Shown here in pieces: positions 30,829 to 43,900 of a stretch of 51,114 nucleotides of DNA (positions are counted from its first letter, which is position 1; each line of letters starts with the position of its first letter). Location: NCBI GenBank assembly GCA_947311115.1, contig CAMZKE010000150.1, positions 1 to 51,114 on the forward strand, written 5' to 3'. The stretch is from an uncultured Bacteroidales bacterium (GTDB lineage Bacteria > Bacteroidota > Bacteroidia > Bacteroidales > JAFGXI01). A model generated the notes under the pieces. That model saw nothing but the letters and a program-made list of their open reading frames with translations. It was not told where the DNA came from and did no database searches. The position numbers were made by a program, and so were the translations under genes.

Positions 30829-31416
30829 TTACTTTTCAGGAAACACCCTGAATCCATCGCTAACCATTTGTTTAACAATTTCTACATCATCAATATAATA
30901 TCTTTCTGTCGTTTTCACGTTTGAATGTAAGGTAGTTATAGATGAATTATTGAAAATCCGTTCTCTTGTAGCGTAGGTTTTTCTTAAATGGGTCAAACTT
31001 CTAAAATAAGATTTGTTCAATTTCTTCCAATAGAACGAAAACGATATTGAGGCTTGTTTTTCCGTGGTTTTTCTATTGTTTACTTCTGGCAGAATCAAGT
31101 ATTTATCGGTATGCTTATTTTTGTTTAAACCCATATCTAACAGCACCGTTTTCAATTCTTCGCCTATAGGAATATATACATATTCAATTTCTTCTATTGT
31201 GAAATTATTCTTCTGTTTATTAACCTTAGTATTTGGGCTTGCAATGTAGATAGGCAAATCATTTTCATAATGAATCATATTCCACTTTAATTTTGCAATA
31301 TCCATATTTCTTTGTCCCGTAAAAGCTTTAAGTTTAAAAAAGTCAGACAACCATGGTCTATATCTGCTTTTTACAGATTTCCCAACTTGTTCTTTCGAAT
31401 TTTCAGGTGGTACCAC
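30829..31416 (-). pseudogene. truncated tyrosine recombinase (integrase C-terminal domain)
   Basis: 195 codons from a GTG; the frame stays open a further ~20 codons upstream, overlapping the next ORF, before a stop. Only the catalytic domain is present, with the family residues in order: first Arg in AFTGQRNMDIAKLKW, then the His-x-x-Arg pair in LTHLRKTYATRE, the next His in TLHSNVKTTERYY and the tyrosine at its end. The N-terminal core-binding domain is missing, so the gene is a decayed phage- or island-type integrase. Its place 230 bp from tRNA-Asn fits tRNA-associated integration. Confidence 0.8.
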
Positions 31417-31421
31417 ATCTA

Positions 31422-31985
31422 TTAAATCAAAGAAATCGTCTCTGTAAATACTAATATTTGACTTTGTGTTAAATTAATTATTCCAATTTCTGAGATTCTC
31501 ATTAATTCTTCATTAGAAAGAAAAAATTTAATATACCCTTTTTCATTATTTGCAGAAATAGGATGCAATAATTTTCCATATCTATTTTCATTTTTTAACA
31601 TATATTTACTTAATGTCCCTGCTATAACTATTGGTTTTGTTTTATTATTTAATTCTCGAAACAGATTATTTTTAAAATTAACCACTTCTGAAATCGGATA
31701 TATATATACATCATTTCTTACATTAATTTTCAGGTCGTAAAAAGTTCCTTCTTCAAAAAACATCTTGTTATCACCTTTCAAAAAACAAGGTTTCCTTTTT
31801 TGATCTGTACCTTTATTGGATAATTTTATTATATCTTTTGTAGAAAAAGGAAGTACAAGAAAATTACCAGTCCCATTCATTTGTATATAACTACCTTCAT
31901 ATGGAAAAAAACAATAATATTCATTAACTTTAATCAATAATGATAAAAATTTATTTATTACAACAGTGCCCGATAGAACGAGCAT
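31422..31985 (-). CDS. hypothetical protein of the island
   Basis: 187 codons with no family that I recognise. The predicted protein is soluble, rich in Lys, Asn and Phe, with beta-strand-like stretches (TGNFLVLPFSTKDII, VYIYPISEVV, KPIVIAGTLSKYML). An internal start at MNGTGNFLV is possible. Its 5' end touches the border of a transposase fragment on the other strand and its 3' end overlaps the open integrase frame, so it may be truncated at one or both ends. Whether it is expressed cannot be judged. Confidence 0.45.
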   Translation of the reverse strand: MLVLSGTVVINKFLSLLIKVNEYYCFFPYEGSYIQMNGTGNFLVLPFSTKDIIKLSNKGTDQKRKPCFLKGDNKMFFEEGTFYDLKINVRNDVYIYPISEVVNFKNNLFRELNNKTKPIVIAGTLSKYMLKNENRYGKLLHPISANNEKGYIKFFLSNEELMRISEIGIINLTQSQILVFTETISLI

Positions 31986-32346
31986 ATCAAATGAGGTCTC
32001 AAGAAATTACCAAGAGGTAGATTTATATACCATTGAACAAATAGAAAGCCGCAATATTGGTGGGGAGTGGCTGATGAAACAGTCCATGCAGAAGTTAGGT
32101 ATTGAAAAGATACTCTCAAGTACAGGTATGGGCAAAGAAGAAATTCTTTACGCTCAAATGCTACTTACAGCTAAAGCCATACACCCGTCAAGCGAGCTAG
32201 AAACCCAGCTGCAGTTACACGAAAACTCAGCCACAAAAGAGCTATATAATAAAAACGAAAAAGTGAGCAGGTATAGGCTGTATAAAGCAGCAACACAAAT
32301 GTATGATTACAAAAAAATATTGATAATCAGCTACATAATAATGTAA
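31980..32346 (+). pseudogene. internal fragment of an IS1634-type transposase
   Basis: The frame reads NEVSRNYQEVDLYTIEQIE, IGGEWLMKQSMQKLGIEKIL, then KEEILYAQMLLTAKAIHPSSE and KVSRYRLYKAATQMYDYKK, matching the region after the N-terminal domain of IS1634-family (IS4 superfamily) transposases. It lacks the protein N-terminus. After YKK the frame shifts at a run of seven A residues; a neighbouring frame continues IDNQLHNNVSNF for a few codons and then stops. The DDE catalytic residues lie beyond the break and are absent. Confidence 0.75.
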
Positions 32347-32485: not shown

Positions 32486-33604
32486 TCACATTTTTAAACT
32501 AACAATAAACTCAGTCCCCTCTCCCCAAACACTATTAACTTCAACTTTACCATTATATTTATCAATCATTTTTTTAAGAATGGATAATCCCAAACCACTA
32601 CCAGAGATATGCTTAGTTTTTTCGTTTCTTATGCGTGTAAATTCGTGAAATAATTTATCAACATCTTCCTGTTTCATACCAATGCCAGTATCTTTAACCG
32701 ATATTTTATATTCGTTAGCATTTTGAGTTAGGCTAATTCTAACCGTTCCATTTTCTTTATTGTATTTAACGGCATTCGATATTAAATTATTAAATATTAT
32801 CTCAATCTCATCGATATCGGCTTGTATATTAGACTCTAATTTCGAATCTAATATTAGCTTTATATTTTGCTGAATTGCCATTGGCTCCATTGTATTGATA
32901 GCCATTTGAGCAATCTCTTTTAAATCTACCGATTCTATTTGTTGAACTTTCTTGCCCGACTCTATTTTGGTTAAGTCCAATAAATCCATAATTAAACTCC
33001 GCATCCCTTTTATTCTAATCATTGAGCGTTCAATCATTTCGCTATAATCCTCTAAATTATCGCCTAATTGGCGGTCTTTCATTAACTTTAAGTAACCATC
33101 GATAGCATTAAGCGGAGATTTAAGTTCGTGCGAAAGAATAGATAAAAACTGAAAGCGAACTTCTTTGCCCGATTCCTGCATTTTCTTGGTTACACGTTTT
33201 AGAAATAAATGCTTTGCTAATTCGTTTATTGCTGTTTTTAAATCGTTAGGTGTAAATGGTTTAGGAATAAAATTATAAGCTCCATTTTTTGTGGCCCGCA
33301 CTGCTAAATCTAAAGATGCAAAAGATGTTATCATCATTACATAAACATCTAAATGGTCTTTTCTAATTATTTCTAAAAGCTCAATCCCCGATATTCCTGG
33401 CAATTTATTGTCTAATAAAACAATATCTGGTTTCTTATCCTTAATAACCTCTAAACCTATTTCACCTGTCTCTGCTTCAAAAATTTCGAATTTAAAATCT
33501 TCGTTAAGAAACGGATAATCTACTCTGTAATTTCTTAAAATACGAGTTATCCCTGAACGAATACCTGGCTCATCGTCTACAATTAATAATTTTAGAACGC
33601 TCAT
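32486..33604 (-). CDS. receiver-histidine kinase protein of the hydrogenase block
   Basis: 372 residues with no membrane segment. An N-terminal receiver (LLIVDDEPGIRSGITRIL, phospho-acceptor Asp65 in IVLLDNKLPG, conserved Lys in FIPKPF) is followed by a HisKA domain with His159 (LSILSHELKSPLNAID) and a HATPase with N box NLISNAVKYN, VKDTGIGM and GSGLGLSIL. It is thus a soluble response-regulator/kinase that could take phosphate from one protein and start a second relay. It is last in the minus-strand run after the single receiver and the hydrogenase-kinase fusion, so it probably works downstream of that sensor. Confidence 0.9.
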   Translation of the reverse strand: MSVLKLLIVDDEPGIRSGITRILRNYRVDYPFLNEDFKFEIFEAETGEIGLEVIKDKKPDIVLLDNKLPGISGIELLEIIRKDHLDVYVMMITSFASLDLAVRATKNGAYNFIPKPFTPNDLKTAINELAKHLFLKRVTKKMQESGKEVRFQFLSILSHELKSPLNAIDGYLKLMKDRQLGDNLEDYSEMIERSMIRIKGMRSLIMDLLDLTKIESGKKVQQIESVDLKEIAQMAINTMEPMAIQQNIKLILDSKLESNIQADIDEIEIIFNNLISNAVKYNKENGTVRISLTQNANEYKISVKDTGIGMKQEDVDKLFHEFTRIRNEKTKHISGSGLGLSILKKMIDKYNGKVEVNSVWGEGTEFIVSLKM

Positions 33605-33643: not shown

Positions 33644-34033
33644 CTATAACCTCATCAACTTATTCATTTCTCTATGCAATTGTTCGGCTCTTACATTCTT
33701 TTCCAAGAACAAATCGGCTTTCATCCAAGTATGGTTTGCATCAGTTTCTAAACTAAAATTCATACCTGTTTCTGCAGTTACTGCACTTATAATTATAACA
33801 GGAACCTCAGGGTTCTTTTTCTTCGACTTATAGCTTAAAATAAATCCACTGTCTTTATTTTCCATCATTAAATCGAAAATACATAAATCGGGATTAAAAT
33901 TATTTAATTTTTCTTCTGCCTCTTTTTGCGAGTCAGCTGTTTCTACTTCAAAGCCCATTTTTTTTACATACAATTCCATTTGTAATAAAAGGTCTTGATC
34001 GTCGTCTGCAATTAATATTTTTTTAGTATTCAT
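33644..34033 (-). CDS. single-domain response regulator
   Basis: 129 residues, receiver domain only: KKILIADDDQDLLLQME, Asp54 in LCIFDLMMENKDSG, VPVIIISAVT and a Lys near ADLFLEKN. No output domain is attached, so it signals by protein contact or phosphate relay. It sits 11 bp after the hydrogenase-kinase fusion and before the receiver-kinase; the three are likely one phosphorelay. Confidence 0.88.
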   Translation of the reverse strand: MNTKKILIADDDQDLLLQMELYVKKMGFEVETADSQKEAEEKLNNFNPDLCIFDLMMENKDSGFILSYKSKKKNPEVPVIIISAVTAETGMNFSLETDANHTWMKADLFLEKNVRAEQLHREMNKLMRL

Positions 34034-34044
34034 TTTTGTAAATT

Positions 34045-36006
34045 TTATTTATTAAATTTTAAAGTGAAACAAGTTCCTGTTTCGCCCATATTTTTATCGG
34101 TATTAGAGGTAACTTTAATTTGTCCCTTATGCATTTTTACTATGCCATAAATAAGAGGCAAACCTAAGCCTGTGCCTTTTCCAACAGGTTTGGTAGTGAA
34201 AAATGGAGTAAATATTTTATCCATATTTTTTTTAGCAATTCCAACGCCTGTATCTTTAATTTTTAAAATTATTTCGTTTTCATTTTCCGATAAATCAACT
34301 GTTAAAACACCACCGTTTGGCATTGCTTCTACTGCATTTTTTTCTAAGTTTGTAAGAACTTGCATCATTTGCTCGGTATCAATATCAAGAATATTGTTTT
34401 CTAAATCGGTATTAAACTCAAGCTTAATGTTTTCTTGTTTAATGATGCTTTTAAAACTGTTTTTTACAAACTTTTCGAAATTAGTAGCCACTAGATTAAC
34501 CTGATTTTTTCGTGCAAAATTTAATAAGCCTCCCACTATTTTTTTACATCTATCGGCTTGCTCTGCAATTAATTCTAAATCTTCTTGAATAGGCGAATCT
34601 TTACCTGCCTCATCTTTTAAAATATTGCTATACATTGTAATAACACCAAGCGGATTGTTAAGTTCATGAGCAATACCTGCCGATAATTGCCCCATATTCG
34701 CAAGCTTTTCAGATTGTTTAAGAGCCTGTTTAGCATTGGCTAATTCTGTATTAGAATTGTTAAGTTTTTCTATTGTAAATGGCAAGCACATTTCTTCCTC
34801 TGCCAATCCACAAACCACGGCCGAAGCGTGTTCTTTACAGTTTATATAACCGCAAGCACCACAGTTTAATAAATCGAGTGTTTCGTTTTTATTCATAGAA
34901 ACCAAAACTGCTGTAATAGCTTCTTCCGAAACTTCCTGCGAGTTTAATTCCTGTTTGGTAAATATTCTTTTAGAATCGATTTTAGAATACAACTCTACAT
35001 CTTTTTCCCAATCTTTTTTATTAATCTTACTAAGTTTTGTTTTTGTAGCCTTACTAATTTTATCTCTACGTAAAAAACGCTTCCCATTTTTTGACATTCC
35101 CGGTCCCATAATACAACCATCGCAGCATAAAAGTTCTAAATATTTAGCATCTAATATTCCTTTTTCGTATTCTTCAATTACATCTTTAAAATACGTTTGC
35201 CCCTGTGCTACAATAGTTTTGTTTTCCGATATATCATCAGATAAATCCATATTATGCAATAAGCCGTGACTTACAGGAAATATGGCTCCTTTCCCGCCAT
35301 AAGGAGGATCGAATTTCGAAGCTGTTACTTTTGTAAAATCAATATTTTTAGCATCAAAAATTTCTCTTAACTCAGAAAACGTAAGCACATAATCGATTAA
35401 ATCCGATTCGGTTTTTTTGGCGATACAAGGGCCAATAAAAACTGTTTTTATATTATCTCCATATTTCTTTTTAACCACTTTAGACATAGTCATTAATGGC
35501 GAATCTACCGCAGCTAAATCTTTAATTAATTTAGGATGAAATTTTTCGATATAATTAACAATAGCAGGGCAATCGGAAGAAATTAGATGTTTAATTTTAT
35601 CGGACTCAACCAATTGCTTGTAGTTTTTAGCAGCTAAATCAGCCCCAAAAGCAACTTCTGTAACTAAATTGAAACCTAATTTTCTAAGCATAGCAACTAG
35701 AATACCTGTCTCATTATGCTCTAAAAATTCGGCTACATAGCTTGGGGCAACCAATGCTACAACCGTTTCTTTTTTCGAATCTAATAATTGTAAAACATCG
35801 TTAATATTGTTAATATATGTTTTAGCCCCTTGACTACAAACCTTAACACAATTACCACAAGCAATACAACGTTCTGTAATAACCTCTGCTTGTCCATTCA
35901 TTATCTTTATAGCCTTTACAGGGCATTCTCTAACGCAAGTATAGCATACTCTACACCTGCCTTTTATGGTAAAAACTAATGGGTTATTTGTGTTTATTAT
36001 TGTCAT
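34045..36006 (-). CDS. [FeFe]-hydrogenase-like sensor fused to a histidine kinase (HydS-like)
   Basis: 653 residues without membrane helices. Residues 18-57 form a 2[4Fe-4S] ferredoxin (C18, C21, C24, C28; C47, C50, C53, C57). Residues ~80-310 are a shortened hydrogenase large-subunit domain with the equivalents of all four H-cluster cysteines: C146 (SSDCP), C194 (GPCIAKKTE), C294 and C298 (CCDGC). The proton-transfer cysteine beside the first ligand (TSCC in catalytic enzymes) is Asp145 here. A further Fe-S domain of the PF04060 type lies at 382-407 (CGACGYINC). A short coiled coil leads to HisKA with His447 (GIAHELNNPLG) and a HATPase to the end. It probably senses H2 or redox state and signals to the receivers encoded just downstream. 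Confidence 0.88.
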   Translation of the reverse strand: MTIINTNNPLVFTIKGRCRVCYTCVRECPVKAIKIMNGQAEVITERCIACGNCVKVCSQGAKTYINNINDVLQLLDSKKETVVALVAPSYVAEFLEHNETGILVAMLRKLGFNLVTEVAFGADLAAKNYKQLVESDKIKHLISSDCPAIVNYIEKFHPKLIKDLAAVDSPLMTMSKVVKKKYGDNIKTVFIGPCIAKKTESDLIDYVLTFSELREIFDAKNIDFTKVTASKFDPPYGGKGAIFPVSHGLLHNMDLSDDISENKTIVAQGQTYFKDVIEEYEKGILDAKYLELLCCDGCIMGPGMSKNGKRFLRRDKISKATKTKLSKINKKDWEKDVELYSKIDSKRIFTKQELNSQEVSEEAITAVLVSMNKNETLDLLNCGACGYINCKEHASAVVCGLAEEEMCLPFTIEKLNNSNTELANAKQALKQSEKLANMGQLSAGIAHELNNPLGVITMYSNILKDEAGKDSPIQEDLELIAEQADRCKKIVGGLLNFARKNQVNLVATNFEKFVKNSFKSIIKQENIKLEFNTDLENNILDIDTEQMMQVLTNLEKNAVEAMPNGGVLTVDLSENENEIILKIKDTGVGIAKKNMDKIFTPFFTTKPVGKGTGLGLPLIYGIVKMHKGQIKVTSNTDKNMGETGTCFTLKFNK

Positions 36007-36190: not shown

Positions 36191-37903
36191 TCATCTTATT
36201 TGATAAGTTCGGTGTAATAAATGATGACTTTTCTCACCCAAAGGTTCACCCAAATAATTCTTGTATAATTGGCTCACCATATGGTTTCGATGCGAAGCTT
36301 TTATAGTATCAGCATCATCAATGTCGTAAAGTGCTTTCATTCGTTTTTGTATAGCATCAATATTTTGATTTATAGGTTGTCCACCACCATTAATACAACC
36401 ACCAGGACAAGCCATTACCTCAATAAAATGCAAATCACTTCTACCATTTTTTATTTCATCGAGTAATATTTCTGCATTTTTAAGACCGCTTACAACTGCA
36501 AATCCAAATGTAGTTCCATTTATCTCAATTTTGGTTTCTTTTCTACCCTCGCAACCTCTTACGTCTTCAATTCTATATTGAGTCAATTCTTTTCCTGTTA
36601 ATCTGTAATAGGCTGTTCTTATTGCAGCTTCCATAACACCGCCCGATGTTCCAAATATTTTACCTGCAGAACTGTGCATTCCAAGCGGAGAATCTGCCAT
36701 TTCTGGTTCTAAATTCTTTAAATCGATACCGTGAAAACGAATTAATTTAGCCAATTCTCTGGTGGTTAAAATTGCATCAACATCAGAAATACCGTTTTGC
36801 ATCATTGTTTTTTCTTGCTGCTCAAATTTCTTGGCTGTGCAAGGCATAACGGCAACTGAATACAAATCTTTCTGTTCTATTTTCTCGGTTTCGGCAAAGT
36901 AGCTTTTTATTACTGCACCCATCATTTGTTGAGGCGATTTACAAGTCGATAAGTTTGGAATAAAGTCTTGCTGGAAACCTTCGGCGTATTTAACCCAACC
37001 AGGACAGCAGCTTGTAAACATTGGTAATTTTCCTCCCGTTGTTACTCTATCTATTAATTCGGCAACCTCCTCTATAATAGTTAAATCGGCAGAAAAAGAA
37101 GTATCGAAAACTACATTAAAACCTATTTTACGCAAAGCTGTATTTAAAACGCCTTTAATATCGGTTCCCGAGTCTAAGCCAAATTCTTCGGCAATAGATA
37201 CCGAGATAGATGGTGCGTGCTGAACAACAACCGTTTTTGTAGGGTCTTGCAAGTTTGCTTCAATCTCTGTAAAATGACATTTTTCTCTTAATGCGCCTGT
37301 TGGACAAACATTTATACATTGTCCGCAATTTACACATTTAGACATATTTAAGCCTTCGTTAAAAGCTGTTCCTATTATAGTTTTGTTACCTCTGCCAACA
37401 AATTCGATAGCAGATACAGCTTCAATTTCTTCGCAAACTCTAACACATCGTCCACATAAAATACATTTTGCAGGGTCACGAACAATACTTGTGCTCGCTA
37501 CATCTAATTTGTATTCTTGTTTTTTGCCTACAATTCTTCTGTTTCTAACATGATGTTCGTTAGATAATGATTGTAATTCGCAATTATTATTTCGTTCGCA
37601 ATACAAACAATCGTCAGGGTGATCGGCTAATAAAAGCTCGATTATAGTTTTACGAGAATTAATAACTCTTTGCGAATGAGTTGTGATACTCATTTTGTCG
37701 GTAACAGGTTCTGAACAAGATGGCACTAAATTTTTTCGTCCCTCTACTTCTACTACGCACATTCGGCATGCTCCAGAAGGTAACATATCCTTCATATGGC
37801 AAAGTGTTGGAACCTTTACAGAATTTCTGTTTAACACCTCCAATATAGTTTCACCTTGTTCGGCTTCAACTTTCTTATTATTTATTTCTATTGTATAGCT
37901 CAT
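36191..37903 (-). CDS. hydA: [FeFe]-hydrogenase catalytic subunit HydA
   Basis: 570 residues. In order: an N-terminal [2Fe-2S] domain (C35, C46, C49, C63), the His-ligated [4Fe-4S] site (H95, C99, C102, C108), a 2[4Fe-4S] ferredoxin (C147, C150, C153, C157; C190, C193, C196, C200), and the H-cluster domain with TSCCPGW (C299, C300), MPCTAKK (C355) and ACPGGCINGGGQP (C499, C503). The spacing coincides with the classical clostridial enzyme. A small-subunit-like tail (HLLHRTYQIR) ends it. With all catalytic residues present it should make or use H2. With NuoF- and NuoE-like partners it is expected to form the trimeric NAD-linked, possibly electron-bifurcating, enzyme. The HydE/F/G maturases must be encoded elsewhere. 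Confidence 0.96.
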   Translation of the reverse strand: MSYTIEINNKKVEAEQGETILEVLNRNSVKVPTLCHMKDMLPSGACRMCVVEVEGRKNLVPSCSEPVTDKMSITTHSQRVINSRKTIIELLLADHPDDCLYCERNNNCELQSLSNEHHVRNRRIVGKKQEYKLDVASTSIVRDPAKCILCGRCVRVCEEIEAVSAIEFVGRGNKTIIGTAFNEGLNMSKCVNCGQCINVCPTGALREKCHFTEIEANLQDPTKTVVVQHAPSISVSIAEEFGLDSGTDIKGVLNTALRKIGFNVVFDTSFSADLTIIEEVAELIDRVTTGGKLPMFTSCCPGWVKYAEGFQQDFIPNLSTCKSPQQMMGAVIKSYFAETEKIEQKDLYSVAVMPCTAKKFEQQEKTMMQNGISDVDAILTTRELAKLIRFHGIDLKNLEPEMADSPLGMHSSAGKIFGTSGGVMEAAIRTAYYRLTGKELTQYRIEDVRGCEGRKETKIEINGTTFGFAVVSGLKNAEILLDEIKNGRSDLHFIEVMACPGGCINGGGQPINQNIDAIQKRMKALYDIDDADTIKASHRNHMVSQLYKNYLGEPLGEKSHHLLHRTYQIR

Positions 37904-37946: not shown

Positions 37947-39878
37947 TTATAAAATCTCAATGGCATCAAACTTACATACCTCGTCGCAGGTTCCACAGCC
38001 AATACACTTATCATCTATAATATAATGAGCTGCTTTTCTAGAGCCAATAATGGCATCGGTAGGGCACTTTTTTGCACATATTGTGCAGCCCGTACATTTG
38101 TCAACATCAATCTTGAAAATTCTTAAACTTTGACAAACTCCTGCATCGCACTTTCTATCGAAAATATGCTCTTCGTATTCGTGCTTAAACCATTTTAGCG
38201 TGCTTAAAACCGGATTTGGAGCCGATTGTCCTAATCCGCAAAGCGAGGTATCTTTAATGACATCGGCTAAACTTTCCAACTCCATAATTCCCCTAAAACG
38301 CACCAGTGCATCATTAGAACTATTGTCGGGTTTAGTGGTAATCAGTTCTAAAATTTCTAACATTCTACCTGTTCCTTCTCTACAAGGGATACATTTTCCA
38401 CAGCTTTCACGCTGAATAAAACTCATAAAAAATTTAGCCACATCTACCATACAGGTTTCTTCGTCCATTACTACCATTCCACCAGAGCCCATCATGGCTC
38501 CGATTTCTACTAAACTCTCATAATCTATCTGTATATCAAGGTTTTGTTCAACAACACATCCACCAGAAGGACCTCCCATTTGAACAGATTTAAACTTTTT
38601 ATTGTTTAAAATACCACCTCCAATATTGTAAATAATTTCGCGAATTGTGGTTCCCATAGCCACTTCTACAAGTCCTGTTAAAGTTATTTTTCCTGATAAA
38701 GCAAAAACCTTAGTTCCTTTACTTGTTGCAGTACCATATTTATTAAAATTACCAGCTCCATTGTTAATAATCCAAGCAATATTTGCTAGTGTTTCTACAT
38801 TATTAATAATGGTTGGCTTTTCAAATAATCCGCTTACAGCAGGGAAAGGTGGGCGTGGGCGAGGCATTCCTCTTTTGCCCTCAATACTATGAATAAGTGC
38901 AGTTTCTTCGCCACAAACAAATGCTCCTGCTCCTTTTTTAATGATAAAATCTAAATCGACACCTGTTCCAAAAATATTTTTACCGATTAAACCGTATTCC
39001 TTAGCTTTTTTAAGTGCAATTTCTAAACGCTCAATGGCCAAAGGATATTCTGCTCTAATATATATGTAAGCCTTTGTTGCTCCAATAGCAAAGGCAGAAA
39101 TAGCTTGTCCTTCAATAAGTTTATGTGGATCACCCTCAATTACAGCTCTATCCATAAATGCACCAGGGTCGCCCTCATCGGCATTACAAATAAAATATTT
39201 CTGATCAGCTTCGGTATTTAACGAAAATTTCCATTTTTTACCAGTAGAAAATCCTCCACCACCACGTCCTCGTAAGCCCGATTCTTCAATAAGGTCGCAA
39301 ATTTCTTTCGATTTGTAATTTCTTATAGTATTCAAATAAGCCTTATAGCCACCTTTTGCAATATATTCCTCAATGCTTGTAGGGTCAATAATTCCACAAT
39401 TTTCAAGAACAATACGTTCTTGCTTTTCAAAGAATGGGTGTTCAGAAATATCTATTACATTATCCCATTTTTCTTGTGTGTCTGACTTAAATTGAGCTAA
39501 AATATGTTTCGGATTTATTTTGTTTGCAAATACATCGTCCAAAATATTGTTAACATCTGTATTGTTAACTTTCTCGAACGAAACACGTTGCTTGTTTGGT
39601 AATTTAACATCCATTATTGGTTCCGACGAACAAAGTCCGATACAACCAACGGCAATTATTTCCGCATCAATATTATTAGTTTCTAAATATTGCTCTATTG
39701 CAATTTTAGTTTTGCCTGCACCTGCACCTAAACCACAAGTTCCTGCACCAATATATATAATAGGTTTGTTGTTTTCTTCTTTAGTAATTTGCTTTAATGT
39801 AAGCAAAGTGTTTTTGTCAAATGGCTTGGTATTATTCAATACCTTTTCTACAAGAAATTTCTTATTGCTATTTTTCAT
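37947..39878 (-). CDS. hydB: NuoF-like hydrogenase subunit HydB
   Basis: 643 residues. An N-terminal thioredoxin-like [2Fe-2S] domain (GAGTCGLGAGAGKT, VGCIGLCSSEP) precedes the NuoF core with FMN and NAD(H) sites (GRGGGGFSTGKKW, CNADEGDPGAFMDR, GAGAFVCGEETALI). A [4Fe-4S] site follows (ESCGKCIPCREGT), then a C-terminal 2[4Fe-4S] ferredoxin (CTGCTICAKKC, CIGCGTCDEVC). This exact layout is that of HydB of trimeric hydrogenases, the flavin subunit where NAD(H) and ferredoxin electrons meet. It overlaps hydC by 11 bp and is 43 bp ahead of hydA. Confidence 0.96.
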   Translation of the reverse strand: MKNSNKKFLVEKVLNNTKPFDKNTLLTLKQITKEENNKPIIYIGAGTCGLGAGAGKTKIAIEQYLETNNIDAEIIAVGCIGLCSSEPIMDVKLPNKQRVSFEKVNNTDVNNILDDVFANKINPKHILAQFKSDTQEKWDNVIDISEHPFFEKQERIVLENCGIIDPTSIEEYIAKGGYKAYLNTIRNYKSKEICDLIEESGLRGRGGGGFSTGKKWKFSLNTEADQKYFICNADEGDPGAFMDRAVIEGDPHKLIEGQAISAFAIGATKAYIYIRAEYPLAIERLEIALKKAKEYGLIGKNIFGTGVDLDFIIKKGAGAFVCGEETALIHSIEGKRGMPRPRPPFPAVSGLFEKPTIINNVETLANIAWIINNGAGNFNKYGTATSKGTKVFALSGKITLTGLVEVAMGTTIREIIYNIGGGILNNKKFKSVQMGGPSGGCVVEQNLDIQIDYESLVEIGAMMGSGGMVVMDEETCMVDVAKFFMSFIQRESCGKCIPCREGTGRMLEILELITTKPDNSSNDALVRFRGIMELESLADVIKDTSLCGLGQSAPNPVLSTLKWFKHEYEEHIFDRKCDAGVCQSLRIFKIDVDKCTGCTICAKKCPTDAIIGSRKAAHYIIDDKCIGCGTCDEVCKFDAIEIL

Positions 39879-40344
39879 CTTTTGCCTCCTTTTCTCTATA
39901 AGTATTAAGAATTTCGTGAATAGATTCTGCGGTTACTTGTGCGTGAAATTCGCCATTTACACTAATTACAGGAGCTAAACCACAAGCACCAATACAGGCC
40001 ACTACTTCTATACTAAATAAGCCATCGGTGGTGGTTTGCTCTGTTTTAATTTTTAAAGCATTTTCTATTTCAGATAAAACTGTTGCTGAGCCAAGTACGT
40101 GACAAGCTGTACCTCTACACACTTGTATATGATATTTACCCGGAGGAGAAAACTTAAATTGATTATAGAATGTAGCAACTCCATAAATTTTACTTGTTGG
40201 TACATTTATATATTTTGATACCTTTTCAACAGATTCTTTCGAAAGAAAGCCTTCGTTTTCTTGTAACTTTTGCAAAATGGGGATTAAACTATCTCGTTTT
40301 GCTCCTTTGTAAGTTTCAAGTATATTGTCAACTTCTGTTTTCAT
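39868..40344 (-). CDS. hydC: NuoE-like hydrogenase subunit HydC
   Basis: 158 residues of the NuoE/24-kDa family. The helical N-terminus (RDSLIPILQKLQENEGFLS) precedes the thioredoxin-like domain with four [2Fe-2S] cysteines in CRGTACHVLGS and CIGACGLAPV. It is the small electron-transfer subunit of the HydABC complex. It is first of hydC-hydB-hydA; a hairpin lies in its upstream region. Confidence 0.95.
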   Translation of the reverse strand: MKTEVDNILETYKGAKRDSLIPILQKLQENEGFLSKESVEKVSKYINVPTSKIYGVATFYNQFKFSPPGKYHIQVCRGTACHVLGSATVLSEIENALKIKTEQTTTDGLFSIEVVACIGACGLAPVISVNGEFHAQVTAESIHEILNTYREKEAKDEK

Positions 40345-40442: not shown

Positions 40443-41372
40443 TTATTTTTTTAACAGTTTATTTACTGTATTAATTAAATACGCAGCTTCAATAGGCTTT
40501 TTAATAAAACCTTCTACTTCAATAGCGTGAGTTTTATTATCGCTAGTACGATAATCTACACAACCTTTTCCTGTTGTTGCATCTTTTATTAAAAGTACAT
40601 CTAACTCTCTGTATTCTCTTTGGCTTCTCATATTCATAGCCATATCAAATACGCTATAATCAGTAGCTATTAACACATCTATTGATGATTGCATTAACAC
40701 CGGAACTCGTTTTAACTCAGGAATATCCTTAAACGATTTTGCCAATTCAAATCCCTCATAATGGGTAGTCATCATTACATCAAGAATTGCAACATCTGGC
40801 ATTACTTCTTTTGCTAATTTAATTCCTTCTGTTTTATTTGATGCTGTGTAAACATCAAATCCTTCTTTTTTTAAAATTGCTTTTGCAACTGTTATGATAT
40901 CAATATCATCATCAACTAATAAAACTTTTTTTGTTTCCATATCACTAATTTTTATACTGTTGTTAATTAAATTTGTATTATAGTTTTTAGAGATGTAGAT
41001 TTCATTATCTAACACCTTATTTATTGCATTGTTTAATTCTGTTCGGCTTGTGTATTTCGATATAATTGCATTTACACCATTTTTTAGTAACTTTTCAAAG
41101 TACAATTCTTCGGTAATAAATGATAACGCAATTATTTTTAAACTCTTGTTTTTATGTTGTAATTGACGTATTAAGTCAAATTGATCTTTACGAATCATCT
41201 CAATATCAATAAATAAAATATCAATATTATTTTTAAATTTGCTTAATAAATCTAATCTCGTTTCTGCTTCTAAATTAATTTCAAATTTGGTATTTTTACT
41301 TAAAATTACTTTAATTGCATTTCTAAATGTTGAATGCTTGTCTACAATTCCTATTTTTATTTTTGCTTTCAT
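40443..41372 (-). CDS. double-receiver regulator
   Basis: 309 residues from the Met at 41372 (MKAKIKIGIVDK); an extension to 41417 is possible but unlike the family. The first receiver (about 1-120) is degenerate: the acidic pocket reads IVDKHSTFRN where IVDDH is usual, though an Asp remains in ILFIDIEM. The second (about 150-309) is intact, with VLLVDDDIDIITVAKA, DVAILDVMM and KKP near the end. There is no DNA-binding domain. It stands between the NarL-type pair and hydCBA, so it probably links the regulators of the block. Confidence 0.82.
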   Translation of the reverse strand: MKAKIKIGIVDKHSTFRNAIKVILSKNTKFEINLEAETRLDLLSKFKNNIDILFIDIEMIRKDQFDLIRQLQHKNKSLKIIALSFITEELYFEKLLKNGVNAIISKYTSRTELNNAINKVLDNEIYISKNYNTNLINNSIKISDMETKKVLLVDDDIDIITVAKAILKKEGFDVYTASNKTEGIKLAKEVMPDVAILDVMMTTHYEGFELAKSFKDIPELKRVPVLMQSSIDVLIATDYSVFDMAMNMRSQREYRELDVLLIKDATTGKGCVDYRTSDNKTHAIEVEGFIKKPIEAAYLINTVNKLLKK

Positions 41373-41659
41373 TTCGTTTAATTTTCTTTGGTAAAGATAT
41401 ATCAACGCAAAAGGCAAAAACAGATAGTAAATTATAAATTTATGCAGTAGAAAGCTGTAATTATTTCAATCAAAAACCAGTACTTTTAAGCAATTATGAG
41501 CTCAAATGCTTTTACGAAGTAAACTAACAAGCACATAGTGAGACGATTGCCGAAAAGGTTGTTTATTATGTATGGTATATTTTTATGAGTAACAATTAAT
41601 TTTATTATGAAAAATAATTACAGATTTTTGATTAAAATTATAGTTCAAATTATTAAAGT
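41373..41659. other. gap between the NarL-type and double-receiver genes
   Basis: Around 290 bases without a recognised gene. TATATCTTTA on the minus strand (about 41392-41401) is near the -7 consensus but off by one base. No terminator was recognised. Confidence 0.3.
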
Positions 41660-42307
41660 TTACACTTCAATAATTTTATTTTTTAAAGCAAATGAGATTA
41701 AACCAATAGCATTTTTACAACCTGTTTTTGATAATAAATTAGATTTATGTCCAATAACTGTACGTTCGCTAACAAATAATTTCTCTGCAATTTCTTTATT
41801 GGTCATACCATCATACAACAACTCCATTATTTCTTTTTCTCGTTTTGTAAATTTAGGTATTTCATTTTTGTGTTGTTGAGTGTTTATCTTTTTAGTAAAA
41901 AAGCCCCAAAGTTCTTCAGAATAATAAACCTGCCCATTGGCAACTATTGTAATGGCTTTATTTAAAATATCTTTGTTTATATTTTTAATTAAAAAGCCTT
42001 TTACTCCAGCATCAAGCATACTTTGTATGTATTCGTCGTCTTTAAACATACTTAATGCAATAATTTTTAAATCTGGCTTAATTTTTAGAGCTTCTTTTGT
42101 TGCTTCAATGCCATTCATTTTAGGCATTTCAATATCCATTAAAACAATATCGGTATCATTATTTTTAAGTTTTTGTATAAAATCGGCACCATCGTAAGCT
42201 TCATAAATATGTGAAACTATTTTTATTTTACCCAGAACCATTTTTAGTCCTTTTCTAAAAATTTCGTGATCGTCAACTATTGCTATATTTAATTCTGTAT
42301 TATTCAT
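41660..42307 (-). CDS. NarL/LuxR-type response regulator
   Basis: 215 residues. The N-terminal receiver has AIVDDHEIFRKGLKMVL, Asp58 in IVLMDIEMPKMNG and Lys in GFLIKN. The C-terminal LuxR-type helix-turn-helix reads FTKREKEIMELLYDGMTNKE, then IAEKLFVSERTVIGHKSNLL. It should bind DNA when phosphorylated. It overlaps the kinase gene upstream by 8 bp, so the two form a pair. The only DNA-binding protein of the island block, it is the best candidate for transcriptional control of hydCBA. Confidence 0.93.
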   Translation of the reverse strand: MNNTELNIAIVDDHEIFRKGLKMVLGKIKIVSHIYEAYDGADFIQKLKNNDTDIVLMDIEMPKMNGIEATKEALKIKPDLKIIALSMFKDDEYIQSMLDAGVKGFLIKNINKDILNKAITIVANGQVYYSEELWGFFTKKINTQQHKNEIPKFTKREKEIMELLYDGMTNKEIAEKLFVSERTVIGHKSNLLSKTGCKNAIGLISFALKNKIIEV

Positions 42308-43313
42308 CTTCTGTAATTATTTCGATACTAAATTGCATATCAACACCAACTTTTACCTGTTCGTTAAAATAAAAATTACCCGACATTGATTTTATACGGT
42401 TTATTATATTTATTAGTCCTATTCCTGATGAGCCATTTTTTAATGCTTTACTTAAATTAAAACCAATACCGTCATCTTTATAATTCAAATGAAGGATATT
42501 ATTTTCGGAAAACAAATCAATAAAAATATTATTTGCAGATGCGTGTTTAATACTATTATTAATTAACTCTGTTATAATTCTGAACAATGTTAGTTTTATT
42601 GTTTTTTCGATATTATCGGGTATGTTTTTATGAGTAAAACTAACGTCTAATTTATGTGTTGCATTTATTTTGTTTTTAAACGAATCTATTGATTTCACTA
42701 AACCGTATGTGCTAATTATTTGAGGTGTAAGGTTATTTGATATTTCACGTGTATTCGTTACAGCCTCATCGAGCAATTCAATAATATAATTAATATATTC
42801 TTCTTTTTCGTTTTTGGTATTATCATCAGAATTTAATTCATGAACATATAGCTTAATAGTTGATAATAAAGGGCCTAAACCATCGTGTAAATCTTTTGCA
42901 AAACGATTACGTTCTTTTTCTTCGGTTTCAATTACTGCCGATAAAATTTTATTCTGTACTTCCTTTTTGTTTATTATTGTATATGCCGAACAAGCAATGT
43001 ATGTATTATTATCTACTATTATTTTTTTTGTATAAATCTCGTAAGGTATAGTTTGATTTTTACTTGAATTTATTTCAAATTCGAAAATTTTTCGCCCTTT
43101 TTCAAAAGTTTCTAATAAATTATTTGTGAATTGATTATTATTAATAATAGTCTTAATATTTTCGAGTTTAACATTTTGTGTTTCATTAATATTAAATACA
43201 CTTTGACCTATATCGTTAATACTAGCTACAACTCCACAATTATCTATAATAAAACACAATATTTCACTTTTATTAAAAAAAGTAAAATATGCCGAAAAAT
43301 CTAATTTTTCCAT
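42300..43313 (-). CDS. NarX/DesK-type histidine kinase (cytoplasmic, PAS-like sensor)
   Basis: 337 residues without membrane helices. The first ~110 residues look like a PAS domain (ILCFIIDNCGVVASINDIGQ). A HisKA_3 dimerisation domain follows with His143 (NRFAKDLHDGLGPLLSTIK), then a HATPase with ELINNSIKHA, DDGIGF and GSSGIGLINI. The HisKA_3 type pairs with NarL-like regulators, matching the gene overlapping its 3' end. The signal is unknown; being soluble it must be internal, such as redox state or a ligand of the PAS domain. Confidence 0.9.
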   Translation of the reverse strand: MEKLDFSAYFTFFNKSEILCFIIDNCGVVASINDIGQSVFNINETQNVKLENIKTIINNNQFTNNLLETFEKGRKIFEFEINSSKNQTIPYEIYTKKIIVDNNTYIACSAYTIINKKEVQNKILSAVIETEEKERNRFAKDLHDGLGPLLSTIKLYVHELNSDDNTKNEKEEYINYIIELLDEAVTNTREISNNLTPQIISTYGLVKSIDSFKNKINATHKLDVSFTHKNIPDNIEKTIKLTLFRIITELINNSIKHASANNIFIDLFSENNILHLNYKDDGIGFNLSKALKNGSSGIGLINIINRIKSMSGNFYFNEQVKVGVDMQFSIEIITEDE

Positions 43314-43384: not shown

Positions 43385-43900
43385 ATGTATTCAAATATTG
43401 TAACAGATATTGTCTGGGAGCGAATAAAAGAGAGGGAAAAACCCAAGGGCGAATATTTTTTGAGATATACAAAAACAGCTGTATCTGAAAACGATATATG
43501 GCAAGTTTACAACCTAACAAGAGATGTAGAGGCTGTATTTAGATGTTTAAAAACTGACTTGGACACAAGACCAATATATCATCAAAAGGATGAATTTATT
43601 GAACCACATATTTGCTTAGGAATTATTGCTTATCAAATTGTCAACTATATTAGAACAACATTGAAAGACAATAATATAGATTATAGTTGAACTACCATAG
43701 TACAGAAAATGCAATCAATGCAATCGTCAATAGTTAGCGTAAACAACAACAATAATGAAAAGATATACATAAAACTGCGCACAAGACCAAATGCCGATCA
43801 AATAAAGATATTCAATACACTTAATTTTAAACACCTCCCTTTTGTGAGAAAACAAAAGTTGTCCCCCAATTGTAAAAACGCAAATCGCAACACGCTGTAA
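43385..43900 (+). pseudogene. C-terminal part of an IS1634-type transposase, with nonsense mutation
   Basis: The frame from 43385 contains YFLRYTKT, WQVYNLTRDVEAVFRCLKTD, TRPIYHQKDEF and CLGIIAYQIVNYIRT, the conserved C-terminal block of IS1634-family transposases, including the third catalytic acidic residue region (DVEAVFRCLKTD). A TGA at 43688-43690 interrupts it where relatives have Trp (DYS-stop-TTIVQKM; TGG to TGA fits). The same frame then runs on to 43900 with KLRTRPNADQIKIFNTLNF and LPFVRKQK, close to the natural end. The N-terminal half is absent here; a different piece of such a gene lies at 31980-32346. Confidence 0.8.

Follow-up and report, generated by a model that had tools for sequence, protein, structure and literature searches.

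A putative H2-responsive sensor histidine kinase with an [FeFe]-hydrogenase-type input domain, encoded beside a HydABC hydrogenase and a conserved pair of receiver genes

Background

Sensory [FeFe]-hydrogenases are proposed H2 sensors. The characterised members, TmHydS of Thermotoga maritima (group C, M2f) and TamHydS of Thermoanaerobacter mathranii (group D, M2e), bind the H-cluster and turn over H2 slowly, and neither has a kinase. Members with a kinase are known from genomes. HydDB lists group C1 as 'Histidine kinase-linked (putative)' (PMC5037454), and a C1 protein has been reported close to the Hnd genes in Petrimonas mucosa (PMC7768429). A 2024 survey of Hydrogenedentota describes BfuT, which has a histidine kinase domain, in BfuABC clusters of sub-type V, and labels it C3; sub-type V is given there for Hydrogenedentota, for Calditrichota with the same organisation, and for some Bacteroidota (PMC11406978). 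The same survey doubts H2 sensing for its own C1 set, as H-cluster motifs were hardly found (PMC11406978).

A search of the open-access literature turned up no paper in which a kinase-fused member had been tested, or in which autophosphorylation of an [FeFe] sensor kinase had been shown to depend on H2. An earlier note on the DNA analysed here had called the direct kinase fusion less well described experimentally. No experiments on it were found, but surveys do describe the arrangement (HydDB C1, Petrimonas and BfuT of sub-type V).

The gene and the domains of its product

The window, ie the whole stretch of 51,114 nucleotides that was analysed, contains an open reading frame (ORF) which begins with ATG and encodes a protein of 653 amino acids. 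The earlier note had its coordinates correct and did not state the strand, which is minus. The features of the gene are as follows.

34045..36006, minus strand: sensor histidine kinase with an [FeFe]-hydrogenase-type input domain (ORF, Pfam, structure model)
35836..35955, minus strand: two [4Fe-4S] motifs, residues 18-57, C18, C21, C24, C28 and C47, C50, C53, C57 (Pfam, cysteine list)
35101..35766, minus strand: H-domain, residues 81-302, Fe_hyd_lg_C (Pfam; Z about 37-40 to CpI and CbA5H)
35569..35574, minus strand: L1, D145 (C299 position) and putative ligand C146 (C300) (alignment)
35425..35427, minus strand: L2, putative ligand C194 (C355) (alignment)
35113..35127, minus strand: L3 loop C294-C295-D-G-C298, one residue fewer than the catalytic CX3C (alignment)
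34786..34863, minus strand: C-terminal Fe-S motif C382, C385, C390, C407 (Cx2Cx4Cx16C, PF04060) (Pfam, alignment)
34504..34695, minus strand: HisKA, residues 438-501, with phosphoacceptor His447 at 34666-34668 (Pfam, alignment)
34054..34380, minus strand: HATPase_c, residues 543-651 (Pfam)

The earlier note had placed 2[4Fe-4S], an H-cluster domain, a PF04060-type Fe-S domain and a histidine kinase in one chain, and a domain search with Pfam matched all of them. The Fer4 pair spans residues 17-61, and Fe_hyd_lg_C (E 1.1e-50) covers positions 2-245 of the 245 in its profile. The PF04060 FeS match (residues 380-409, E 1.1e-6) lies above the cut-off, and HisKA and HATPase_c were matched with E 1.4e-14 and 5e-22. 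None of these matches is due to chance. There was no Pfam match to a PAS domain in the sensor kinase. The kinase boxes are intact, with His447 in AHELNNPLG, the N box NLEKNA at 553, and the G boxes (G1 and G2) with DTGVG at 585 and GTGLGL at 611. As the earlier note had it, the H-domain is shortened, being 222 residues long compared to 285 in the neighbouring HydA (Pfam). The spacing Cx2Cx4Cx16C has been reported for sensory M2e and M2f enzymes, and is matched exactly by C382-C385-C390-C407.

Predicted structure

Structure prediction, a check suggested in the earlier note, gave a model with a hydrogenase fold. The AlphaFold model was generated with a 48-row alignment and has a pLDDT of 85. The part from residue 1 to about residue 352 has the fold of [FeFe]-hydrogenases and can be superposed on CpI and CbA5H over about 345 residues. 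The match to CbA5H has Z 40.1 and rmsd 2.4 with 344 aligned residues, and that to CpI has Z about 36-37 and rmsd 2.6-2.9. A helix predicted at residues 408-450 links the FeS domain to HisKA in the model, where residues 435-446 are of low confidence.

Phylogeny and output domains

A tree of the input region was calculated with IQ-TREE after removal of the L3 columns, using reference rows defined by domain content. Sensory and catalytic proteins were split with support of 100/97 (97 in a quick tree with more rows), and a clade of the kinase, sigma-54 and MCP types had support of 99/95. The window protein lies with L004 and other Bacteroidales kinases. Phylogeny, likewise suggested in the earlier note, thus groups the sensor kinase with sensory proteins of group C type and apart from the catalytic hydrogenases. 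The direct-kinase fusions are spread over more than one clade, about 5 changes of this label being required on the tree (no fewer than 3 if judged by the starred branches).

Assignment to catalytic group A or B is ruled out by the tree and by the pocket residues; the motifs are SSDCP in L1 and CCDGC in L3 instead of TSCCP and PGGC. Group D (M2e, TamHydS-like) is ruled out by Gly192 at the M353 position, where Ser or Thr would be expected, and by the HisKA and HATPase_c output. The group C-type traits found were the position in the sensory clade, the Cx2Cx4Cx16C motif after the H-domain, an unconserved C299 and proton relay, and a small residue at M353. The PAS domain of that type, as in TmHydS (M2f), is lacking; HydDB (PMC5037454) and the 2024 survey (PMC11406978) nevertheless file PAS-less kinase-linked proteins in group C.

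Several outputs are joined to the sensor module: HisKA directly, PAS-HisKA, MCP signalling domains, PAS-containing C-termini in which no kinase was detected, and Sigma54_activat with HTH_8. The PAS-kinase form adjoins a REC-Sigma54-HTH_8 regulator in three loci from the Clostridia phylum. The sigma-54 fusion seems to condense this pathway into a single protein. Sigma-54 activators joined to a sensory [FeFe] module were seen in genomes of two phyla (L124, L126, L128-L142, L144, L146, L149 and L155). Five were confirmed by Pfam (L124, L132, L136, L139 and L155, of which L136 is cut short with no HTH seen) and the remainder were assigned by motif; the full-length examples scanned with Pfam have a Fis-type HTH. 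These fusions are apparent one-component transcription activators, and no papers on [FeFe]-sigma54 fusions were found in the open-access literature.

The active site

The active site was compared with that of the neighbouring HydA, and positions are given in CpI numbering. The earlier note held that the four H-cluster cysteines were kept, as C146, C194, C294 and C298. Three of these align with ligands, C146, C194 and C298 with C300, C355 and C503, respectively. The assignment of C294 is the less likely one, as it is C295 that aligns with C499. C294 is confined to a Bacteroidales subclade and L111, where the adjacent cysteines permit either spacing, whereas C295 is invariant in the kinase rows. 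Both this invariance and an alignment anchored in the strand that precedes the loop favour C295 over C294 as the probable fourth ligand. All four ligand columns are invariant in the kinase rows (34/34), compared to a mean column identity of 49% for the family.

The sensor kinase has D145 at C299, G192 at M353, L293 at M497, L171 at Q325 and A165 at S319, and gaps at the E279 and E282 positions. The equivalents of E279, E282, R286, S319, M353 and M497 are all missing. It keeps S169 (S323), K197 (K358), P88 (P231) and S89 (S232).

Asp145 stands at the position of the proton-transfer cysteine, as the earlier note said, and had been taken there as a sign of slow turnover. This is contradicted by saturation mutagenesis of C298 in CaHydA, in which Asp alone kept high activity, with kcat about half (PMC3485046), and because of this result Asp145 is no argument for slow turnover. 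Better grounds for a putative slow turnover are the lost equivalents of E279, E282, R286 and S319 together with M353G and M497L. Sensory enzymes have Ala at the C299 position in about 43%, Cys in 17%, and Pro and Ser in about 10% each (PMC10055695). Asp was found in one Bacteroidales subclade only, that of the sensor kinase, its relatives having Ser, Pro, Ala or Phe, and this rules out Asp145 as a conserved adaptation of the sensors.

It is very unlikely that the protein is a slow catalytic hydrogenase which happens to carry a kinase and whose H2 turnover is metabolically important. The gene does lie within a catalytic hydrogenase operon, and Asp at the C299 position was the sole substitution that kept turnover in CaHydA (PMC3485046), but the six active-site equivalents listed above are missing, the protein groups with fusions to signalling outputs, and a full HydABC is encoded next door.

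The L3 loop

The kinase-linked relatives have in common a deletion of one residue in L3, which gives CX2C where catalytic enzymes have CX3C. CX2C was found in 44 of 44 direct-kinase proteins, 5 of 5 PAS-kinases and 16 of 21 sigma-54 fusions, and CX3C in the catalytic enzymes, the MCP-type proteins and 19 PAS-type sensors. As far as we found, the deletion has no earlier description. With L3 shortened in this way normal assembly of the H-cluster is not assured, and this is the main uncertainty of the mechanism proposed below.

The short loop might prevent insertion of [2Fe] altogether. The domain would then hold an ordinary [4Fe-4S] cluster only, and the kinase would read ferredoxin or the cellular redox state. 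The presence of CX2C in every one of the 44 direct-kinase proteins and 5 PAS-kinases, with CX3C in the catalytic, MCP-type and 19 PAS-type proteins, would agree with such a redox sensor, as would a second sensor copy in L006, L010 and L013 which has no C499-equivalent cysteine and keeps the other Fe-S motifs. In CpI the substitution M497L impaired [2Fe] integration (PMC10055695), and Leu is the rule at that position in the sensor-kinase family. We nevertheless regard this alternative as unlikely. Pocket residues without a role in a plain cubane are kept in the kinase rows (S323 in 34/34, P231 in 34/34 and K358 in 31/34), other sensory enzymes which have neither M353 nor M497 still bind the H-cluster, and the gene adjoins HydABC in most loci.

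Relatives

Full-length homologues with 50-57% identity were found in ten Bacteroidales-type MAGs, one of which (L008) has the gene split into two frames. A sample of the phylum (395 genomes) gave many further homologues with 42-45% identity, from another class. In profile searches the sensor module turned up in the Desulfotignum phylum in 27 of 247 genomes (E up to 1e-60), and in the Clostridia phylum in 180 of 299 (E up to 1e-50), the latter including more distant hits of group B type. A decaying gene without current function is extremely improbable: the ORF is full-length, no kinase or cluster motif is missing from it, and relatives at 42-57% identity keep these motifs. Two relatives are apparently split (L008 and L081) and degenerate second copies exist, but each split was seen in a single draft genome and could stem from faulty assembly.

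Four loci have the second, divergent sensor copy, which is encoded on the minus strand, upstream of hydC (L006:2749-4620, L010:2346-4196, L013:24-1892 and L009:1585-3447). In three of the four (L006, L010 and L013) Asp or His replaces the C499 equivalent, and none of the four retains the K358 equivalent, so that H-cluster binding by these copies seems doubtful. That they lose ligands, while every kinase row keeps them, suggests continued selection on the kinase form to bind the cluster. The window genome has no second sensor copy.

Four kinase-fused proteins (L120, L121, L123 and L127) have an altered L2, eg ITPCLAHMRE, without the K358 equivalent. Their REC and REC-kinase pair is kept (L160, L161), and no HydABC was found directly upstream in the stretch read; they possibly respond to a different signal.

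The genomic neighbourhood

The genes around the sensor kinase are as follows.

41660-43313, minus strand: HisKA_3 kinase and NarL-type regulator (Pfam)
40443..41417, minus strand: double-receiver protein, of uncertain membership in the system, only its C-terminal receiver being matched in L004 and L005 (Pfam)
39868..40344, minus strand: HydC, NuoE-like (Pfam)
37947..39878, minus strand: HydB, NuoF-like (Pfam)
36191..37903, minus strand: HydA, catalytic subunit of a bifurcating-type hydrogenase (Pfam; NF040763 with 796.6 bits, cut-off 765)
33644..34033, minus strand: lone receiver (REC), phosphoacceptor D54, next gene in 35/35 loci (Pfam, locus comparison)
32486..33604, minus strand: REC-HisKA-HATPase protein, D65 and H159, second gene in 34/34 testable loci (Pfam, locus comparison)

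Read along the minus strand the order is HisKA_3 kinase with NarL-type regulator, double-receiver protein, HydC, HydB, HydA, sensor kinase, lone REC and REC-HisKA-HATPase protein. The two downstream receivers of which the earlier note spoke are therefore present, as the lone REC and then the REC-HisKA-HATPase protein (Pfam). In every locus with flanks (35/35) the lone receiver is the next gene after the sensor, and in every locus extending far enough (34/34) the receiver-kinase is the second, while HydABC lies directly upstream of the sensor in 28 of 35. The receiver pair is thus a more constant partner than HydABC, which supports a relay. The phosphoacceptors are invariant as well: Asp54 of REC in 36/36, including the window, and Asp65 and His159 of the receiver-kinase in 35/35 and 33/33. 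These adjacent receivers are the likely targets of the sensor kinase. As far as we found, the receiver relay has no earlier description.

The NarL-type regulator and HisKA_3 kinase were considered as a conserved output and ruled out, there being no match in the other loci. No conserved DNA-binding output was found in the operon across the loci compared, which counts against the explanation we prefer. A promoter scan gave 49 sites where 59.5 were expected, ie below chance, and was uninformative; there was no minus-strand terminator-like site in the gaps between HydA, sensor, REC and REC-kinase.

HydE, HydF and HydG are encoded in the genome on contig C73, next to a second HydABC, and score above the cut-offs of NCBIfam; with all three present the H-cluster can be made in the organism. 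The second HydA (L097:4671-6455) has TSCSP in L1, with Ser at the CpI cubane ligand C300. In another class (L063-L077 and L080, about 16 kb each) most cassettes are extended by a further receiver and a second hydCBA, which unites the two hydrogenases and the sensor in a single long cluster, whereas in the window genome the second HydABC lies with HydEFG.

Weak mobile-element-like fragments flank the hydrogenase region at 30829-31416 (minus strand), 31966-32346 (plus strand) and 43385-43690 (plus strand). The matches are integrase-like (E 1e-4, below the cut-off) and transposase-like (E 0.045), and the right-hand fragment is single copy in the genome. These fragments suggest, but do not show, past mobility.

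Proposed mechanism

The protein is probably a sensor histidine kinase of the cytosol, of the same type as the group C sensory [FeFe]-hydrogenases, which responds to H2 (or to H2/redox). The central proposal of the earlier note, a sensor kinase with an H-cluster-type input domain, agrees with the intact domains and motifs and with the place in the sensory clade. An H2 sensor is favoured by these together with the hydrogenase fold, the invariant ligands and the maturases. The linkage to HydABC, REC and REC-kinase and the outputs of the relatives, all of them signalling (sigma-54, PAS-kinase, MCP), point the same way, as, by analogy, do the H-cluster binding and slow turnover of the characterised sensory relatives.

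We infer the following for H-cluster assembly, H2 as the signal, the direction of the response, the route of phosphotransfer and the final output. HydEFG would install the H-cluster in the sensor kinase. H2, or reduction through the N-terminal [4Fe-4S] pair, would change the state of the H-cluster domain, and this change would reach the HisKA dimer by mechanical coupling, via the C-terminal FeS domain and the helix starting at residue 408, altering autophosphorylation of His447. In TamHydS H2 does not reduce the C-terminal cluster, and arguments have been made against such a reduction being the signal (PMC13104023), which counts against this coupling step. Phosphate would then pass to D54 of the adjacent receiver, to D65 of the REC-kinase, or to both, and the relay would adjust hydrogenase expression or activity. 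The sensor kinase probably helps to regulate the adjoining hydrogenase genes.

More tentatively, it is possible that in kinase-linked and most sigma-54-linked sensory hydrogenases the L3 deletion creates a differently shaped or incomplete H-cluster site which serves as the signalling switch, acting through a dedicated REC and REC-kinase relay more constant than the neighbouring hydrogenase. If true, this would be a distinct design for H2/redox sensing, not represented by TmHydS or TamHydS. With sensor and kinase in one chain and likely receivers next door, the question of how the signal leaves the H-cluster domain becomes one for an autophosphorylation assay, and the conserved REC and REC-kinase genes are named candidate partners.

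Comparison with known systems

TmHydS resembles the sensor kinase in its 2[4Fe-4S], H-domain and C-terminal [4Fe-4S], in an unconserved C299 and in Gly at M353. It ends in a PAS domain, whereas HisKA and HATPase follow directly in the sensor kinase, and at the positions of D145, F243 and L293 TmHydS carries Ala, Tyr and Ser. TamHydS has the same Fe-S layout without PAS, but Ser at M353 and no fused output domain, where the sensor kinase has Gly and a kinase. In the group 2b [NiFe]-hydrogenases the metal site is unrelated and the kinase is a separate protein. These regulatory, histidine kinase-linked enzymes are a functional analogy, in that H2 sensing is passed to a histidine kinase (PMC5037454).

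HydDB C1 is alike in linking an H-cluster domain to histidine kinase signalling near bifurcating hydrogenase genes (PMC5037454, PMC7768429). BfuT of sub-type V, as described in the 2024 survey, is also alike: it is a sensory [FeFe]-hydrogenase which carries a histidine kinase domain and whose gene follows that of the bifurcating A subunit. The sub-group labels conflict, kinase-linked proteins being C1 in HydDB and BfuT C3 in the survey. The survey also describes, in some Bacteroidota, a second copy upstream of the C subunit (PMC11406978), like that in L006, L009, L010 and L013 and unlike the window genome. The phrase 'response regulator' is absent from the accessible text of the survey, and the L3 loop is not discussed in it (PMC11406978). 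The sensor kinase therefore belongs to a family already catalogued from genomes, whose fusion and neighbourhood are known, and is not a new kind of system.
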